Assembly (NCBI GenBank): GCA_009778385.1
Contig: WRJX01000099.1
Coordinates: forward strand, 1 to 55,201
Length of the DNA: 55,201 nt
Origin: Candidatus Bathycorpusculum sp.
Lineage (GTDB): Archaea > Thermoproteota > Bathyarchaeia > Bathyarchaeales > Bathycorpusculaceae
Direction: 5' to 3'
Shown here: positions 18,729-55,201 of the stretch, piece after piece
How positions within the stretch are numbered: position 1 is the stretch's first letter
How the letters are laid out: each line of letters starts with the position of its first letter
Position numbers and translations under genes: made by a program
The notes under the pieces: model-generated
The model's database searches: none
Seen by the model: the letters and a program-made list of their open reading frames with translations, nothing else
What the model was told of the DNA's origin: nothing

Positions 18729-19724
18729 TTATTTGCGTTTTTTAAAGTATACCAGTAAACTGGTGCTCACAATAACCATAGACACTACAACGGTGGCTAT
18801 TATTGCTGTTAGAAAAGATTTCGGCGCATCTCCAACTGGAGATGTTGTTGGAGCAGGAGTTGATTCAGAATTAATCTCAGGAGCTCCAGCACCCTTTATA
18901 GGATTCACTGAAGGGTTATAATCAACAAAGGAGCAATCAAACGCACCGGTTTTCTCATAAGTGTATGGCGTATCCCAAATACCTGTACAATCTATCTCTT
19001 TAGCATCAGGATACAATATTCTATAATTACTCCAATAATTCCCATCAACATTAAGCCTACCATACATAGCAAGAAACACCATACAATTAATGAAATCATT
19101 TTCAGTTGCAACATTCTCCATAGAATAATCTACAAATATTGCCGGTTTACCATCAATGAAAACATTATATTTAATTACATTTCCTTTATTATCACCGCCT
19201 TCTCTGATGTCTATTCCACCTCCTTCAAAGACATTATTGGTGAAACTGTTACCAGTAGAGGAAGCAAATATGTAACTATTGTCACAAAAGTACACATTCT
19301 TCACCACTATATCGCCATAAGCAAACGGAATAGTAGCAGTAGAATCTTTTTTCAGATTTATACCGTTTCCATTTCCTTTAATTGCGTATCCATCACCATC
19401 GATTGTTATACCATCCTTTTCAACTTTTATGGTACCAAAAATATTCCCTGTAAAAGTGTAAGTGTCCCCTTCTCGCTGAATCAGATCAGTCCCCTTAACA
19501 CTTCCATCAGAGGCAATAGTTATAATGGAACCTGTCTGAGCATCCACCAAACCAGTAGAAAAGCTCACGATCACCACTGAACATAATAACAGCACCAAAC
19601 AAAACAAAGCCACACCCATTTTCTTAATACAGCCAACCCTCAACTTAACCAAATTAAAATTTAACCCAGGATACAAAGAACTGTTTAACGCCAAACGGAT
19701 AACAGGCATCACTTTATCCAACAC
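18729..19724 (-). CDS. Exported NosD-like right-handed beta-helix protein, C-terminally anchored
   Basis: 331 residues. An N-terminal hydrophobic segment (about 36-58, 'VALFCLVLLLCSVVIVSFST') precedes a parallel beta-helix: 'GTIKVEKDGITIDGDGYAIK', 'NSFTNNVFEGGGIDI', 'NVIKYNVFIDG', 'NVATENDFINCMVF', 'NVDGNYWSNY'. A Ser/Thr/Pro linker leads to the membrane anchor 'FLTAIIATVVVSMVIVSTSL' and tail 'YFKKRK'. The NYW/GNYWSNY motif is typical of periplasmic copper-binding NosD-like repeats in archaeal surface proteins. The first 35 residues are unusually long before the signal; a start at MGVALFC (residue 36) is equally likely. It is a surface protein of unknown ligand. Confidence 0.8.
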   Translation of the reverse strand: MLDKVMPVIRLALNSSLYPGLNFNLVKLRVGCIKKMGVALFCLVLLLCSVVIVSFSTGLVDAQTGSIITIASDGSVKGTDLIQREGDTYTFTGNIFGTIKVEKDGITIDGDGYAIKGNGNGINLKKDSTATIPFAYGDIVVKNVYFCDNSYIFASSTGNSFTNNVFEGGGIDIREGGDNKGNVIKYNVFIDGKPAIFVDYSMENVATENDFINCMVFLAMYGRLNVDGNYWSNYRILYPDAKEIDCTGIWDTPYTYEKTGAFDCSFVDYNPSVNPIKGAGAPEINSESTPAPTTSPVGDAPKSFLTAIIATVVVSMVIVSTSLLVYFKKRK

Positions 19725-19856
19725 ACTCCAAGAACGCTAACACTAACAGTCATAAATACTCTCCGCAAAACATAAACTATGAAAAAATACGCCATAAGCA
19801 TCACAATGAAAAAATGGTCACATCAGCTGTTTACGTTTAACAAAAAAATAATGATG

Positions 19857-19946
19857 TTACCGATGTCCTTTCTTGACCACTAACCCAGTTGCTAATACTG
19901 CAACTATTACCGCTATAACAGCCACACCTACATAGAGCCTCTTGCA
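19857..19946 (-). pseudogene. Orphan transmembrane anchor remnant
   Basis: Between stop codons the frame reads 'LYVGVAVIAVIVAVLATGL' followed by 'VVKKGHR'. This is one transmembrane helix with a basic tail, the standard C-terminal end of the exported proteins nearby, with no head domain and no start codon. It lies in the 19725-20192 interval, which otherwise shows only the promoter of the coiled-coil gene (GTTATAAT near 20171). Confidence 0.55.
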
Positions 19947-20192
19947 CTAACTCTTAATTTAACACGACTAAACGATACATATATTCCTTACTACATAAGC
20001 TCACCATAGAACAAAAAACCAAAAAAACAGAAACAGCAAAAAGGTCTAAATCTTAGCTGACAATAAGGTTTTGTGAAAATTGTCCAAAACACTTTAGATC
20101 AATAGGGGTTTAGAAGGTTTTTTGACTTAATTAAAGAGCATCGGAGGGCAAATTTTAAAAAATTAGGGGAGTTATAATTTGTTTGAAAAGTT

Positions 20193-32818: not shown

Positions 32819-33574
32819 TTGAAAGGAAAACCTGCCAGCCCTAATGGAGAACAAGAAATAAATTACATACAACGTAATACTTCTACAAGGTGTAGAGCAA
32901 TAGACGATTTCCCGTCCATAACATTTAAAATTGGAACAGGACAAACTAAAAACGACCGCCTCTGGCTTACAAAGAAAAAAGAATACTACGAAAAAATTTG
33001 GAAAAACAGCGGTCCAAAAATTTTACGAAAAATAGAAGACATATGCGGGGACACCTTCACAAGCACCTCTAAAGAAAAAGGCATCCTTGTGTTACTCTAC
33101 AAAAAAACAGCCCAAACCCGCTATGGCAACCTAAAAGAAGACAACCCCTTAGAAATCAGCCTCTACATATCAAAAACAGACAACACCAATACAACAAAAG
33201 AAACACTAATTCGCATGCTAGTCCACTCATTTATCTGGCAACAATATGAATTTCATTTCCGCGACCGCATACAAACTCTTTTCGAAGACATACTAGCAGA
33301 CGAATATGTAACTTCAATAGTTACTTTCACGGTATTAGGACGAAAACTTGGACGCACAAACTGCACCAAAGCATTAAACCAAGCTATTGAAGAAACCGTT
33401 TACCGACTAACACAAAAACAAACACAAAACAAACTCGTAGATCTACTGTACTGCTTCTCTCAAGAAGAAAAAACAAAAAACAAAAAAAGACAAGACATAC
33501 TAGAACACCGAGAAGAACTTGTACTAAAACTATTAACTTTTCTACCAAAAAACATCAACCTAGAATTAGAATAA
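32819..33574 (+). CDS. Hypothetical 251-aa protein
   Basis: I do not recognise this protein. It is soluble, alpha/beta, Lys/Thr/Asn-rich. A central segment 'TLIRMLVHSFIWQQYEFHFR' followed by 'RIQTLFEDILADEYVTSIV' has the helical look of a metalloprotease zone but lacks HExxH. The frame starts at TTG 32819. A TATA box (ATATATAC, about 32781-32788) predicts a transcript starting 5-10 nt before it, so a near-leaderless mRNA is plausible. The coding strand is strongly A/C-rich and poor in G. Confidence 0.6.
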   Translation: MKGKPASPNGEQEINYIQRNTSTRCRAIDDFPSITFKIGTGQTKNDRLWLTKKKEYYEKIWKNSGPKILRKIEDICGDTFTSTSKEKGILVLLYKKTAQTRYGNLKEDNPLEISLYISKTDNTNTTKETLIRMLVHSFIWQQYEFHFRDRIQTLFEDILADEYVTSIVTFTVLGRKLGRTNCTKALNQAIEETVYRLTQKQTQNKLVDLLYCFSQEEKTKNKKRQDILEHREELVLKLLTFLPKNINLELE

Positions 33575-33657
33575 TTACTAAACACAAAAATAATTTTCAA
33601 CACCACAAGTAAGATACAAAGCATTAACTCACAAAAACGGTAAAACCAACACACAGT

Positions 33658-34749
33658 TTAACCATCAACATATATGTTCAATTTTTCCTCTACACGACCC
33701 ACTCTCTTTTGTAAATAAAAAAGCATGACTACCACAACAACACCCACCACTACAACCACAACACCCACACAAATAACCACAATATCCCACGCACCAAAAC
33801 CAGCACCAGTAAATGTTCCACCATTACCCATAGATGATTCACCACCAGACAATCCACCATCATCAGATGGTCCACCACTATTATTACCACCAAATGATCC
33901 GTTATTGCCGTTAGAGGATCCACCACCATTGCCATTAGAAGACCCACCGCTATTCCCGTCGTCGGGATATACATTTTTACCATTTACAGCTGTGTTACCA
34001 GAAATCATACCACCATGCCAATTAAATGTGCCACGGTTACACACACCACCACCAAAAGTAGCAGCTGTGTTATTAGAAATCTCACCACCAGACATACTAA
34101 ATGTGCCAATGTTGTACACACCACCACCAAAACTAGTGTCATGAGTGCTAAAGGCAGGATAAGCTGTGTTGTTAGAAATCTTACCGCCATGCATCTCAAA
34201 AATACCAGCGTTGTACACACCACCACCATTACCACCATATATCTGACCATTAGAAGCCAATTGGGTTACAACTATGTTATCAGAAATTTCTCCACCATAC
34301 ATAATAAGGGTACCATCAGAAGAAACATATACACCCCTACCGGAATTACTTTTATGTGTTACAATTATACCATCCAATATCAACACTCCACTACCTTCAA
34401 CAGTTAGAGTATCTACACCAGAGGCACCGATTAACTTGTAAAATTTGAACAAACTACTTGTTAAGGTAATATCTTTGTTAGCAGGTATGATTAGTGTTTC
34501 TGTAATGGTGATATCGTTATTAAGTTTGATAATTGTGGGGCCTGTAGCACTGTTGAGAGCGTTTTTAAGTTCTGTCTCGTTGTTAACTATTTTATCAGGG
34601 ACTCCTAACACAAAAGAAGACATACCAGTAAATGTAGAAGTAAAACCAGAACATGCTAATGCTATTACAAATAGTAAAGAAACAAAAAACAAAACCCGTC
34701 TACTATAAAAACGGTGGAAATTAAACTTGACCCTAACATTCATATCCAT
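33658..34749 (-). CDS. Exported beta-helix adhesin-like protein with GGxxN repeats and membrane anchor
   Basis: 363 residues. A signal segment (about 15-38) is followed by 'NNETELKNALNSATGPTIIK', the start of a right-handed beta-helix, and then imperfect repeats of about 28 residues: 'GGGVYNAGIFEMHGGKISNN', 'GGGVYNIGTFSMSGGEISNN', 'GGGVCNRGTFNWHGGMISGN'. A ~70-residue Gly/Ser/Asn linker leads to a very hydrophobic anchor (V/I-rich, 'VVICVGVVVVVVGVVVVVML') and an intracellular tail 'QKRVGRVEEKLNIYVDG'. It is a surface adhesin-like protein related in design to methanogen and gut adhesins. Its ligand is unknown. Confidence 0.82.
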   Translation of the reverse strand: MDMNVRVKFNFHRFYSRRVLFFVSLLFVIALACSGFTSTFTGMSSFVLGVPDKIVNNETELKNALNSATGPTIIKLNNDITITETLIIPANKDITLTSSLFKFYKLIGASGVDTLTVEGSGVLILDGIIVTHKSNSGRGVYVSSDGTLIMYGGEISDNIVVTQLASNGQIYGGNGGGVYNAGIFEMHGGKISNNTAYPAFSTHDTSFGGGVYNIGTFSMSGGEISNNTAATFGGGVCNRGTFNWHGGMISGNTAVNGKNVYPDDGNSGGSSNGNGGGSSNGNNGSFGGNNSGGPSDDGGLSGGESSMGNGGTFTGAGFGAWDIVVICVGVVVVVVGVVVVVMLFYLQKRVGRVEEKLNIYVDG

Positions 34750-51756: not shown

Positions 51757-53094
51757 CTAACCGAAAAAGTCAGACATCTTTTTCTGATAAAGTGCCCGCT
51801 TCAAAAGTTCACTCTGCCTTACCCACCTACCCAATGGAATCTCGAATCGAGTGCTTATATGCTGAAGAGCTTCAGGCAATGTTTTAAATTGGAAAGGTTC
51901 TTGTCGCATCGCATTTCGCACGTTCTCTCGAACTTGCCAGACACCAATCGGCATAATATATCCAGGACGCGCTTCACGAAGCACGATCACAGTTGCCTGC
52001 CGACGCTCCTTAATCAGCAATTCACAAGTCGCCAACCGCGCTGAGTAATAGCAGCCACCAATTGCAGCATAAGTCGTACGTCCACTGTTACCTTCCCAAT
52101 CTGAAAATATGGCAACATTTTTGCCAGCCGGATTCCAAACAGTTCCCGGATACCATGCTTCCATTGATTCGTAACTGTACTGACCGGGAATCATTAAAAT
52201 TTCAAACACATTATCAAGATAAACTGACTCATAAACTCGATATTCGTTTATTTCTGGGAAAGTTTTTACTTGTTCACGAAGATTTTTTGATATGATATCA
52301 TCAACAGCAGTTATGCTCCAACGTGTGGGAACTAAACGGCGATTCTTTTCAATACCAAATGCTCCGACACTAAACGCTTTCTGAATTTTAGTAACTATAA
52401 CTCCACGGTCATAAAGCTCTAATACCGCGTTAGTTGATTTGAGATCAGTATCATAGTAAGCTTTCTCGATACGCTGCTCATAACGAGCGTCACCAACACG
52501 CATATCCCGAATGGGCGCTGAAGGACCAAACGGTTGCACATCATCATCTAAAAAAATTGAACCACGCGGTTTCTTAGTCAGATTTAGCTCCATGTCCACG
52601 CTGTTATCTGCCAAGGCTAATTCACGGGTAGCATCAAGGATTTTTCCAGATTTAAGGACATTAGTTACGTTAACCCGGTGCTTTCCCCGCACAAGCATGG
52701 AACGAAAACCCACAATTTCATCAATTGACTTGCCAAACCATTGTTCAGGTAAATCGTAAATACTTGTATCTTCACTTACAGGTGGCACGAGAGGACCAGC
52801 ATAAACGTTTGGGTAACCGATTCTACCGATAAACACACTTGGCGGAGACATACCGGCTATGTCTTGATTTGACATTAAGGGGATGCTTTTGTTAAAGTAT
52901 TGTACTTTAACCATTATTGGGCAACGAGTTTTTCCACAGAGACTTCGTGCACCCTTACAAATAACACATAAGCTATCTTGGCTGGCACGAGCCACAATTT
53001 GACTGTCATCACCAACGTTTGTGTGTTTTAGAATATCCTTTAACCAATTATCAGTTGGTCGCACATTTTGCGGGGGTTTGACAGAGAAAGACAT
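51757..53094 (-). CDS. nreA: DNA repair protein NreA
   Basis: 445 residues of the archaeal Nre family. An N-terminal zinc finger 'SLCVICKGARSLCGKTRCPI', then 'PPSVFIGRIGYPNVYAGPLV', 'GFRSMLVRGKHRVNV', 'PRGSIFLDDDVQPFGPSAPI', 'FEILMIPGQYSYESMEAWYP' and 'AAIGGCYYSARLA'. The terminal 'QKKMSDFFG' is a canonical PCNA-binding peptide. Nre proteins protect archaea from DNA interstrand or alkylation damage. It is the last housekeeping gene before the small-ORF cluster; the 53095-53368 interval holds no supported gene. Confidence 0.97.
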   Translation of the reverse strand: MSFSVKPPQNVRPTDNWLKDILKHTNVGDDSQIVARASQDSLCVICKGARSLCGKTRCPIMVKVQYFNKSIPLMSNQDIAGMSPPSVFIGRIGYPNVYAGPLVPPVSEDTSIYDLPEQWFGKSIDEIVGFRSMLVRGKHRVNVTNVLKSGKILDATRELALADNSVDMELNLTKKPRGSIFLDDDVQPFGPSAPIRDMRVGDARYEQRIEKAYYDTDLKSTNAVLELYDRGVIVTKIQKAFSVGAFGIEKNRRLVPTRWSITAVDDIISKNLREQVKTFPEINEYRVYESVYLDNVFEILMIPGQYSYESMEAWYPGTVWNPAGKNVAIFSDWEGNSGRTTYAAIGGCYYSARLATCELLIKERRQATVIVLREARPGYIMPIGVWQVRENVRNAMRQEPFQFKTLPEALQHISTRFEIPLGRWVRQSELLKRALYQKKMSDFFG

Positions 53095-53368
53095 CTATAT
53101 TGATGAAGACTAAAAGTGGTTGATATGTTTTCTGCAAATAAACCCCTAAAAACAGTAACAACCATAGAAACAAACAATGAAAGGTATGAATTTAAAACTG
53201 TCAATTAAACGCCTAGTTTTCACGTTTACAATTTCCAGAAAGGTGTACTTCCACACTTTTAAAAATATGATTTTAGAATGTTAAAGTTCAAAACATAAAA
53301 AATTTGGTTGAGTTTTAATTATTTTTTTTTAGAACCAGTGCGCCGCAGGCGTTTTTGGGGGTATCCCT

Positions 53369-53533
53369 CTAATTTTTAAAGTCTTTAACTTCGCCACAAT
53401 CACAGCAATAAAGAGTATCAACAAAAAAACAATCAGGGTCGTTGTGGTCTTGTGAACTAAAAACCCGTTCCCACCTTTCTTTTGTACTACCACATTTATG
53501 ACAAGGCTTAGTTTCTGTTTTGTTAGTTGACAT
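53369..53533 (-). CDS. Small zinc-ribbon protein (54 aa) of the right-end cluster
   Basis: MSTNKTETKPCHKCGSTKER continues to 'VDTLYCCDCGEVKDFKN'. Two CxxC knuckles (CHKC and CCDC) about 32 residues apart make a zinc ribbon. No wider similarity is recognised. It is the last gene of the minus-strand small-ORF cluster. A compact hairpin (CGCC-GCA-GGCG, about 53342-53352) lies just beyond its stop. Confidence 0.6.
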   Translation of the reverse strand: MSTNKTETKPCHKCGSTKERWERVFSSQDHNDPDCFFVDTLYCCDCGEVKDFKN

Positions 53534-53564
53534 GAAAAAAGAGTGTGTGTTGGTTGTTAAAAAG

Positions 53565-53888
53565 TTATAGGTTTTCGTCTTGGTAACTATAACATGTGAT
53601 GCTTACAGCTTGTTTTTCTTCTAAAATTTTAACGGTAGTACAGTATTTACATTTGTGAATATGCACAATTTTACCCACATAATTAATGTCTAAATCAACA
53701 TCATCAAGGTCAACAACTATGTTTTTAAAATTCACGTTAAAAACAGCTTTACCATTACTAATTTTAAATCCCTGAACTATTCCAATTTCATCATGTGAAA
53801 AAACATTAGTTTGACTTGCATAACATAAAGAAACACAAAAGACAGCAAATATAATAAGCATAATTAGCTTCACATGTTTCTCGTTCAT
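53565..53888 (-). CDS. Small exported or membrane-tethered protein (107 aa)
   Basis: From ATG 53888 (MNEKHVKLIMLIIFAVFCVS) a signal peptide or anchor spans residues 7-23, followed by a small beta domain ('GIVQGFKISNGKAVFNVNF', 'VDLDDVDLDINYVGKIVHIH') with 'KCKYC'. The start has an AAGGTGA ribosome-binding site and overlaps the upstream gene's stop as ATGA, which decides it over an ATG at 53921. No family recognised. It may be a secreted or surface OB-like domain. Confidence 0.65.
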   Translation of the reverse strand: MNEKHVKLIMLIIFAVFCVSLCYASQTNVFSHDEIGIVQGFKISNGKAVFNVNFKNIVVDLDDVDLDINYVGKIVHIHKCKYCTTVKILEEKQAVSITCYSYQDENL

Positions 53889-54013
53889 GTTTTCACCTTC
53901 TTTTTTACAGGCAGGTAACAATCACAAGCAACAGAATCATGGTTAGCACTACGCAAACAAACACACATACCAGCAAAATAGTACAAGCAATCAAAACAAA
54001 CACTATATCTCAT
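53885..54013 (-). CDS. Cysteine-rich 42-aa protein
   Basis: MRYSVCFDCLYYFAGMCVCL then 'RSANHDSVACDCYLPVKKK'. Six cysteines arranged CxxC...CxC...CxC could bind zinc. Its ATG lies inside the end of the preceding gene (11-bp overlap) and its TGA overlaps the next ATG (ATGA). That arrangement is the main evidence that it is real. Confidence 0.6.
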   Translation of the reverse strand: MRYSVCFDCLYYFAGMCVCLRSANHDSVACDCYLPVKKKVKT

Positions 54014-54158
54014 CTTTTACCACTTCACCTAATTTTTCAACATCACACGTCTTTACGTAAAACTTATGCTCACACGTACTGCAACAAAAACATGTAAGAC
54101 CAAGCACATACGCAAACAAACGAGTAACTTTAGAGCGACCACAAAAAGGACACCGCAT
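54003..54158 (-). CDS. Small zinc-finger protein (51 aa)
   Basis: MRCPFCGRSKVTRLFAYVLG continues 'LTCFCCSTCEHKFYVKTCD'. CPFC and the cysteine-rich 'CFCCSTC' form a likely zinc ribbon, followed by an acidic helical tail. It starts 3 bp after the previous stop. Possibly a DNA- or protein-binding ribbon; no name can be given. Confidence 0.6.
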   Translation of the reverse strand: MRCPFCGRSKVTRLFAYVLGLTCFCCSTCEHKFYVKTCDVEKLGEVVKDEI

Positions 54159-54161
54159 GTT

Positions 54162-54317
54162 CTAAAACTCCCTTACAATTTTTTCAACAGCCTTAAAAGT
54201 AGGATGGTCGGACGGCACATTTGTTACATAAGTAAACACATGTCTACCTTTCACATCATCACTTAACTCACACTTGTTAGTTGCTTCATGCACTATAATA
54301 GTAACAAGATAATTCAT
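54162..54317 (-). CDS. Hypothetical 51-aa protein
   Basis: MNYLVTIIVHEATNKCELSD continues 'GRHVFTYVTNVPSDHPTFKA' and ends 'KIVREF'. A mixed alpha/beta small domain, no cysteine pair. An AGGTGAT ribosome-binding site precedes the ATG. Packed between neighbours on the same strand (2-bp gap upstream). Confidence 0.55.
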   Translation of the reverse strand: MNYLVTIIVHEATNKCELSDDVKGRHVFTYVTNVPSDHPTFKAVEKIVREF

Positions 54318-54319
54318 GT

Positions 54320-54481
54320 TTAATCACCTCGCTCTAAAAGTTTAATCCTACGTTCAAGGTCTTCAAGCCGTCTCTCAGTCTTCCGCATCCACTCCGCCAT
54401 AGGTTCAAAGTCATGCCTATGCCAAACAACAAACAAAACAAAAAGAAAAGTGGCAATGCTAAACACTAAATGCCAATCCAT
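54320..54481 (-). CDS. Single-pass membrane protein with coiled coil (53 aa)
   Basis: One transmembrane helix (WHLVFSIATFLFVLFVVW) is followed by a charged coiled coil ('EWMRKTERRLEDLERRIKLL'). Its ATG overlaps the stop of the preceding gene (TAATG). The small anchor plus heptad helix resembles a phage spanin- or holin-like accessory design, but no specific match can be claimed. Confidence 0.6.
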   Translation of the reverse strand: MDWHLVFSIATFLFVLFVVWHRHDFEPMAEWMRKTERRLEDLERRIKLLERGD

Positions 54482-54699
54482 TAAGGTGAAACCTCACCTT
54501 TTTTGAGCTCTTCAATAATTACTTTCAACGCTTCAAGTTGTACAGTGCCCTCAGCGTAACCATGAATAAACTTTACCCTGTCAAGCCAATACTGCAAAGT
54601 AGCCACCCATTCTCGGTTTTTTAGTTCACGCTGACCACCACTATACTCAAAGGGACAAAGAGCTTCCGTGTGACAAACACCACAAAAACAATAACTCAT
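54481..54699 (-). CDS. Cysteine-containing 72-aa protein
   Basis: MSYCFCGVCHTEALCPFEYS has a CxCxxC knuckle, then a helical part 'NREWVATLQYWLDRVKFIHG' and 'EALKVIIEELKKGE'. A GAGGTG ribosome-binding site precedes it, and it overlaps the previous stop as ATGA. No family recognised. Confidence 0.6.
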   Translation of the reverse strand: MSYCFCGVCHTEALCPFEYSGGQRELKNREWVATLQYWLDRVKFIHGYAEGTVQLEALKVIIEELKKGEVSP

Positions 54700-54899
54700 T
54701 GTTTGTACACCTCAAAATCCGTTTTACCATCAGGGTTACGGCACTCAACCAAACAATCAGACCCAAACTCGCCAACATTAACCAACTTAGGGCAACTAAC
54801 ACCATATTTTTCCGCTACACAAATAAAAGCAGTAAACGGCACATTCACCTTATACCGCTCAACACAACGCCCATCATAACAACGCAAACGACCAGTCAC
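54696..54899 (-). CDS. Cysteine-containing 67-aa protein, GTG start
   Basis: The GTG start at 54899 directly follows the previous stop (TAAGTG), and the ribosome-binding site is inside the previous gene's last codons. 'RLRCYDGRCVERYKVNVPF', 'AEKYGVSCPKLVN', 'GSDCLVECRNPDG' contain five cysteines and short beta strands. Function unknown. Confidence 0.6.
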   Translation of the reverse strand: MTGRLRCYDGRCVERYKVNVPFTAFICVAEKYGVSCPKLVNVGEFGSDCLVECRNPDGKTDFEVYKQ

Positions 54900-55100
54900 T
54901 TAAGCACCGCTCCTGTTTTTTAGACTACAAAGTAATTTTGTTACAAGGATATGGGCATCAGAAAGCATTGTTTGCTCAGCCTCTGTTAAACATTGGTTAT
55001 TGTTAGCAAATACCGTGATAAGTGCCACGTTAGCTTTTAAAACGGAATCAACAATTTGGTTATGTTTATGAATTCGCATTTTCTCTGCTTCAAACGACAT
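54900..55100 (-). CDS. Helical 66-aa protein
   Basis: MSFEAEKMRIHKHNQIVDSV continues 'LKANVALITVFANNNQCLTE', two or three helices, ending 'CSLKNRSGA'. GGAGTGGAG upstream is its ribosome-binding site. The last six residues are the same as in the next gene upstream, and the encoding DNA holds the ribosome-binding site of the following gene. Confidence 0.6.
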   Translation of the reverse strand: MSFEAEKMRIHKHNQIVDSVLKANVALITVFANNNQCLTEAEQTMLSDAHILVTKLLCSLKNRSGA

Positions 55101-55102
55101 GT

Positions 55103-55201
55103 TTAAGCTCCACTCCTGTTTTTCATGCTGGAGACAACAAACTTTAACGCATCATGAGCCTTAACAAGCGAACAAACCTCTTTCGCGGTAAAATAAGAAT
55201 A
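55103..55201 (-). CDS. Partial small gene running off the window
   Basis: Only the last 32 residues are in the window: 'YFTAKEVCSLVKAHDALKFV' then 'VSSMKNRSGA'. 'AHDALKFVVSSMKNRSGA' aligns with the end of the downstream gene ('AHILVTKLLCSLKNRSGA'), suggesting tandem paralogues. The 5' end is missing. Confidence 0.5.
   Translation of the reverse strand, partial: YSYFTAKEVCSLVKAHDALKFVVSSMKNRSGA

Follow-up and report, generated by a model that had tools for sequence, protein, structure and literature searches.

An orphan, probably mobile run of minute genes beside nreA in a Bathycorpusculum-like archaeon

What kind of DNA packs ten tiny genes head to tail directly beside an ordinary host gene? 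The window in which this question arises is a stretch of 55,201 bp, the entire contig C99 of a 2.18 Mb genome in 105 contigs. Because the window is the complete contig, the cluster (53369-55201, minus strand), which reaches the contig end, runs off the end of the assembly. Judged by the protein sequence of NreA, which is 84-91% identical to its counterparts in Candidatus Bathycorpusculum genomes (class Bathyarchaeia, several from termite-gut studies), the host is a bathyarchaeon close to that genus. The initial annotation took the cluster to be accessory, probably mobile DNA abutting host genes and, beyond that, the strongest candidate here for an undescribed system. The first of these ideas finds support; the second is not borne out so far.

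Layout and coding character of the cluster

Ten consecutive minus-strand frames had been counted. They are indeed consecutive, although only nine are complete (42-107 aa) and the tenth is open at the contig edge. In the order of reading, the complete genes g9 to g1 have 66, 67, 72, 53, 51, 51, 42, 107 and 54 codons, with a median gene of 54 aa. The features are as follows.

g10, 55103..55201, minus: ORF truncated by the contig end, with its last 32 codons visible; its tail, ...KNRSGA, is common to g9
g9, 54900..55100, minus: 66 aa, ATG start, GGAG site, 2 bp after g10; no family match
g8, 54696..54899, minus: 67 aa, GTG start (TAAGTG junction), six cysteines (CxxxxC, CxxxC)
g7, 54481..54699, minus: 72 aa, overlapping g8 at an ATGA; CxCGxC in the N-terminal part, C-terminal half helical
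g6, 54320..54481, minus: 53 aa, TAATG junction; N-terminal hydrophobic helix and charged, heptad-like C-terminal segment, by inspection
g5, 54162..54317, minus: 51 aa, GAGGTGA site
g4, 54003..54158, minus: 51 aa, zinc-ribbon-like (CPFC...CSTC)
g3, 53885..54013, minus: 42 aa, CxxC, CxC and CxC; overlaps g4 by 11 nt
g2, 53565..53888, minus: 107 aa, beginning with a signal or anchor helix that is followed by a beta-rich domain with one CxxC
spacer, 53534..53564, minus: TATA-like CTTTTTAA about 30 nt before g1
g1, 53369..53533, minus: 54 aa, CxxC and CCxC
shared end sequence, 53247..53392, minus: GGGATACCC, a short hairpin, AAAACTCAACCAA and a T-run, ending in AGTGTGGAAGT
host/insert junction interval, 53186..53247, no strand: between the shared end sequence and the DNA upstream of nreA that is kept in relatives
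nreA, the host flank, 51757..53094, minus

The junctions from g10 to g1 measure 2, 0 (TAAGTG), -4 (ATGA), -1 (TAATG), 2, 3, -11, -4 (ATGA) and 31 bp. All the overlapping and near-touching types described at the outset (ATGA, TAATG, TAAGTG and 2-3 bp) are thus present, together with the 11-nt overlap and the 31-bp gap. Ribosome-binding sites had been noted for most genes, and Shine-Dalgarno-like (SD) motifs do precede eight of the nine complete ones, g1 being the exception. Cysteine-rich genes are present as claimed, although closely spaced cysteine pairs occur in six proteins (g1, g2, g3, g4, g7 and g8) and not in seven; g1, g3, g4 and g8 have at least six cysteines each. On inspection the sequences are also compatible with the signal or anchor helix described for one protein (g2) and with the transmembrane helix and coiled coil of another (g6). 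Judged by their alignment (41% identity over 29 aa, E=2e-5, BLASTP), g9 and g10 are tandem paralogues. Elsewhere in the window, two 1-kb stretches have a strongly negative GC skew (19001-20000, -0.39; 33001-34000, -0.40).

Could such a chain arise by chance? A detector that links ATG/GTG ORFs of 35-130 codons on one strand, across gaps of -20 to +12 and with an SD-like motif required, joins eight small ORFs in the cluster. In dinucleotide shuffles (1,000 at each of two SD thresholds) the longest chains are 2 and 3, and dropping the SD requirement raises the longest chain in 1,000 shuffles only to 4. Elsewhere in this genome, over about 1.2 Mb, no chain exceeds 3 (a ribosomal-protein operon), and 1.23 Mb from other archaea likewise gives 3 at most. 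Among viruses the same detector finds chains of 6 and 5 in SSV1 and of only 2 in the rod-shaped SIRV2. The minigene chain is far beyond chance.

Codon use supports the proposed reading frames. Under a codon model trained on the long genes of the window, the score summed over the nine frames is +50.3, whereas it is negative in each of the five other frames. Support is weakest for g3 (-0.6) and g4, both of which have an atypical, cysteine-rich composition. One competing ORF of 54 aa (53329-53493) overlaps g1 and was dropped, because the g1 frame has a homologue and the better codon score.

The proteins themselves have next to no relatives. With the nine joined as a query against up to 257 Bathyarchaeia genomes, there is one clear match beyond the genome itself, to g1, and no homologue of g2-g10 was found in the 257 genomes of the class, same-genus relatives included. 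Searches of INPHARED and PLSDB (tblastn) left the cluster proteins without a match, and five IMG/VR queries, sensitive to close relatives only, found none. Nothing convincing, and nothing above a curated cut-off, was obtained for them from Pfam, PHROGs, NCBIfam or PADLOC; Rfam gave no match of weight.

The one hint of a family concerns g4. It scores 20.9 bits (E=3.4e-4) against the Lar restriction-alleviation model TIGR03655, below the cut-off of 39.6, and 12.3 bits (E=0.2) against Lar_restr_allev (PF14354), below the cut-off of 28.6. Another weak match is to a DpnI zinc ribbon (E=0.0056). By score, then, g4 falls short of membership in the Lar family, and generic zinc ribbons score similarly weakly. 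Its weak matches in other genomes were dismissed as homologues; they are unrelated zinc ribbons within longer proteins. Single-sequence AlphaFold models of g2 (a helix at 3-25, then strands, pLDDT 54) and g8 (uninformative, pLDDT 39) were too uncertain for a fold search and were set aside.

The insertion site and the end module

If the genes are real, how did they come to lie next to nreA? In three close relatives (G007, G027 and G030) the order is S10 - tRNA-Asp(GTC) - nreA, with 209-288 bp between the tRNA gene and nreA. Here S10 and tRNA-Asp end a different contig, C53, whose last bases, 185 bp from the tRNA, belong to unrelated sequence; hence the minigenes sit in an insertion. On the nreA side the similarity to relatives ends at ~53182-53186. 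The two contigs thus end on corresponding sides of a single site, the pattern that an insertion would give. Comparison of these genomes indicates that the cluster is present here and missing at the same site in close relatives. The site is also variable in the genus, since four other relatives have no tRNA there, and in G020 a decayed tyrosine recombinase lies ~3.6 kb from nreA. The terminal 85 bp of C53 (L109, positions 1-85), which should border this insertion at its other end, hold a truncated frame, ...IWNEPTNNNPATIQEYFEVQQQVINAIRA, resembling part of a glycoside hydrolase (NEP motif). No exact word longer than 12 nt is common to the cluster and the end of C53; the far boundary of the insertion is beyond the contig.

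The edge of the cluster nearest to nreA differs from the rest. g1 lies 31 bp from g2, lacks an SD motif and appears to have a leaderless promoter of its own; a leaderless transcript is suggested by the TATA-like element ~30 nt upstream. The match in G007 (contig C112; 64% over 25 aa, E=5e-8) covers the 5' half of g1, and the leader that precedes it (L033) resembles that of g1: when the 50-nt leaders are aligned, 2 of 2000 shuffles do as well. At L033 (2206-2690) the g1 homologue is apparently interrupted, with a transposase-like gene, which we take to be ISAzo13-like, directly downstream.

In G009 it is the 3' half of g1 that survives, decayed and in two copies. The 146 bp at 53247-53392 of the window (the end of g1 and the DNA downstream) are 70-82% identical to two ~260-bp repeats in G009. 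With a covariance model of this stretch (R1), 61 genomes yield no more than five strong copies, every one of them within this genus: one here (G000), two in G009 and one each in G030 and G031. Their surroundings are unrelated, and include an IS1-like transposase fragment with uvrC, and sbcCD/helicase genes; in G030 the module follows a recombinase-like ORF and in G031 it lies near an IS and hicA. Similarity among L031, L032 and the window stops at AGTGTGGAAGT. Thus, the g1/end module occurs at unrelated sites. From its sequence the stretch is a probable terminator or element end, and we think that it forms, together with g1, the terminal module of a dispersed element, although it could be just a shared terminator region. 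A MITE or IS end was considered and rejected; L031/L032, inspected by eye, showed neither inverted repeats nor a target duplication.

These comparisons support the accessory, probably mobile character first proposed. The proteins are absent from all the relatives searched save for the half-length g1 match, the S10/tRNA-Asp/nreA order is broken exactly here, and further copies of the end sequence lie in other genomes of the genus. The contrary pattern, with the same small genes at the same place in all relatives, was sought and not seen.

Where, then, is the rest of the element? No integrase or other recombinase was found in the visible ~2 kb before the contig ends within the cluster, and no capsid, terminase, packaging ATPase or replication gene, nor any PHROG match of weight, is there either. 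At the nreA side, the only visible boundary, neither an att repeat nor the 3' end of a tRNA was seen, and the window has no tRNA. Most other contigs were examined, either in full or through their terminal parts, by tblastn, by blastn and with the chain detector. This covered nearly all contig ends, the exceptions being those of C104 and C105 and the tails of C101 and C103, and no remainder was recognised. Elsewhere in the genome there are eight tyrosine-recombinase places, several beside tRNAs, none of them linked to the cluster.

One candidate integrase came from another genome. At L089 (G030, contig C119, 1213-2630) a recombinase-like ORF split by a frameshift is followed by the shared end sequence. 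It was rejected as the integrase of the element: neither Pfam nor PHROGs recognises it, it has no match in the present genome, and the related ORFs of other genomes belong to larger elements of replication type.

The host has integrative elements of its own. Tyrosine recombinases on C41 (L112), C89 (L117) and C97 (L114), 57-70% identical to the C41 copy, belong to a family with at least six places in this genome; they lie immediately beside tRNA-Leu or tRNA-Thr in C97 and C89, and with TFB-like and ParB-like genes in C41 and C89. These loci are an integrative element family of this host. Two further loci, L118 (C88, 6167-10701) and L090 (G027, contig C81, 3062-9089), have related gene sets: a replication-protein-like gene of ~860-885 aa, recombinase-type genes and a 76-92 aa partner. 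Both look like integrated plasmids or viruses, the C88 copy lying beside tRNA-Leu(TAG).

What the cluster may be

The explanation we favour, and consider probable, is that the cluster is an accessory operon, early or anti-defence-like, belonging to a mobile element that has integrated, or to what is left of one. It would be the host-proximal end of a provirus, integrative plasmid or remnant inserted between tRNA-Asp(GTC) and nreA of this termite-gut-type bathyarchaeon. Genes g10 to g2 would form one polycistronic, translationally coupled operon with its promoter beyond the contig end, and g1 would stand on its own, probably leaderless, with a terminator behind it that closes the element. The tiny zinc-ribbon, membrane and secreted proteins, some of which may bind zinc, might tune host processes or counter host defence, much as proposed for the SSV T6 operon. 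What leads to this view is the combination of an eight-link SD chain with in-frame codon use and no homologues of g2-g10 in the genomes and databases searched, a host gene order broken at a site that is variable in relatives, and a g1/end module found in other contexts in G007, G009, G030 and G031. The accessory or anti-defence part draws on the cysteine-pair, membrane and signal-helix proteins and the T6 precedent. The tandem paralogues g9/g10 and the Lar-like hint in g4 also count in favour of the explanation as a whole. Against it we count the absence of a linked hallmark gene, of an att/tRNA end and of a recognised remainder, the sub-cut-off Lar likeness of g4, and the chance that the end sequence is a shared terminator and nothing else.

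Must the DNA be mobile at all? A lineage-specific host island of fast-evolving small genes for secreted or membrane proteins, defence or cell-cell conflict, not self-moving, would account for the signal-like helix of g2, the membrane anchor of g6 and a visible 2 kb without a mobile gene; ~31% of the content of archaeal dark matter islands is secreted or membrane and 15% defence (PMC4158269). However, a median of 54 aa and overlapping coupling are extreme, the genes are missing from all same-genus relatives, the end module is dispersed in other genomes and PADLOC gives no convincing match. We regard the island as unlikely, while keeping it in view. There is less to be said for a decayed fragment left by deletion, its operon no longer functional. 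Signs of decay are seen in related places (the g1/end copies in G009, the broken recombinase near the same site in G020, the apparent truncated glycoside-hydrolase fragment that ends C53), whereas here nine complete frames are intact, with coding-like codon use, SD motifs and no frameshift, and this makes the idea improbable. A misjoin of a virus or plasmid contig end to the nreA contig, in assembly or binning, would explain why the cluster lies at a metagenome contig end and why no continuation was found on other contigs. But a second contig of this genome, the one with S10 and tRNA-Asp, has its own break at the corresponding point, and the g1/end module is integrated in other genomes of the genus; an artefact is accordingly very improbable.

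What if the accessory operon is the first glimpse of something larger? It might be the early operon of a new family of temperate viruses that infect termite-gut Bathyarchaeia and have the g1/end module in common, with new classes of zinc-ribbon anti-defence proteins. This reading is rather unlikely. As the accessory operon of a virus or integrative element, the cluster would offer a handle on the mobile DNA of termite-gut Bathycorpusculum-type archaea, and its nine proteins, candidates for host takeover or anti-defence, would be of a size suited to expression and screening. Its g1/end module could also be used as a probe for complete members in long-read termite-gut metagenomes.

Comparison with known systems

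The claim of an undescribed system is not borne out by comparison: no hallmark gene is linked to the cluster, and such packing is known both from archaeal viruses (SSV1) and from dark matter islands (PMC4158269). The closest architecture is that of SSV1 (Fuselloviridae), a temperate, integrating virus whose T6 early operon and T5 small-gene region are runs of genes for 45-132 aa proteins on one strand with ATGA-type overlaps. The cluster has the same polycistronic arrangement of overlapping small genes on one strand, with a chain of 8 against 6 in SSV1, and fits nine genes into 1.8 kb. The likeness is one of architecture only; no sequence similarity was found, and the SSV hallmarks (VP1, ATPase, D-335 integrase) are not visible here. 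The T6 operon of SSV fuselloviruses carries predicted anti-defence genes, including known anti-CRISPRs (PMC11065993).

Other systems are further removed. Viruses of the same host class, some of which integrate, have been described (Fuxiviridae, Kunpengviridae, Huangdiviridae and Chiyouviridae; PMC10848311). The visible cluster has no MCP, terminase, portal or VP gene, and the five IMG/VR queries brought up no relative. Because no hallmark gene is linked and no continuation was found, it is filed under no virus family. Lar-type proteins (TIGR03655) share the CPFCG...CxxC zinc-ribbon layout with g4, but at a score below the cut-off. The tyrosine-recombinase elements beside tRNA genes that are common in this host (C41, C88, C89 and C97) carry TFB-like, ParB-like or large replication-type genes, and none has a minigene chain.

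The category into which the cluster does fit is that of the archaeal dark matter islands (Makarova et al., 2014; PMC4158269). These comprise at least five uncharacterised genes of narrow spread, encoding short proteins, some of them secreted or membrane-bound. Going by the homology searches, the cluster too holds at least five uncharacterised or virus-related genes with a very narrow spread, since g1 alone of its nine complete genes has a relative in 257 genomes of the class. Its genes are much shorter (the island median is 119-131 codons; PMC4158269) and their coupling is unusually tight. The cluster is real, orphan and probably mobile. As long as the remainder of the element is out of sight it counts as ordinary in kind, a member of a known category with unusually small and tightly packed genes.
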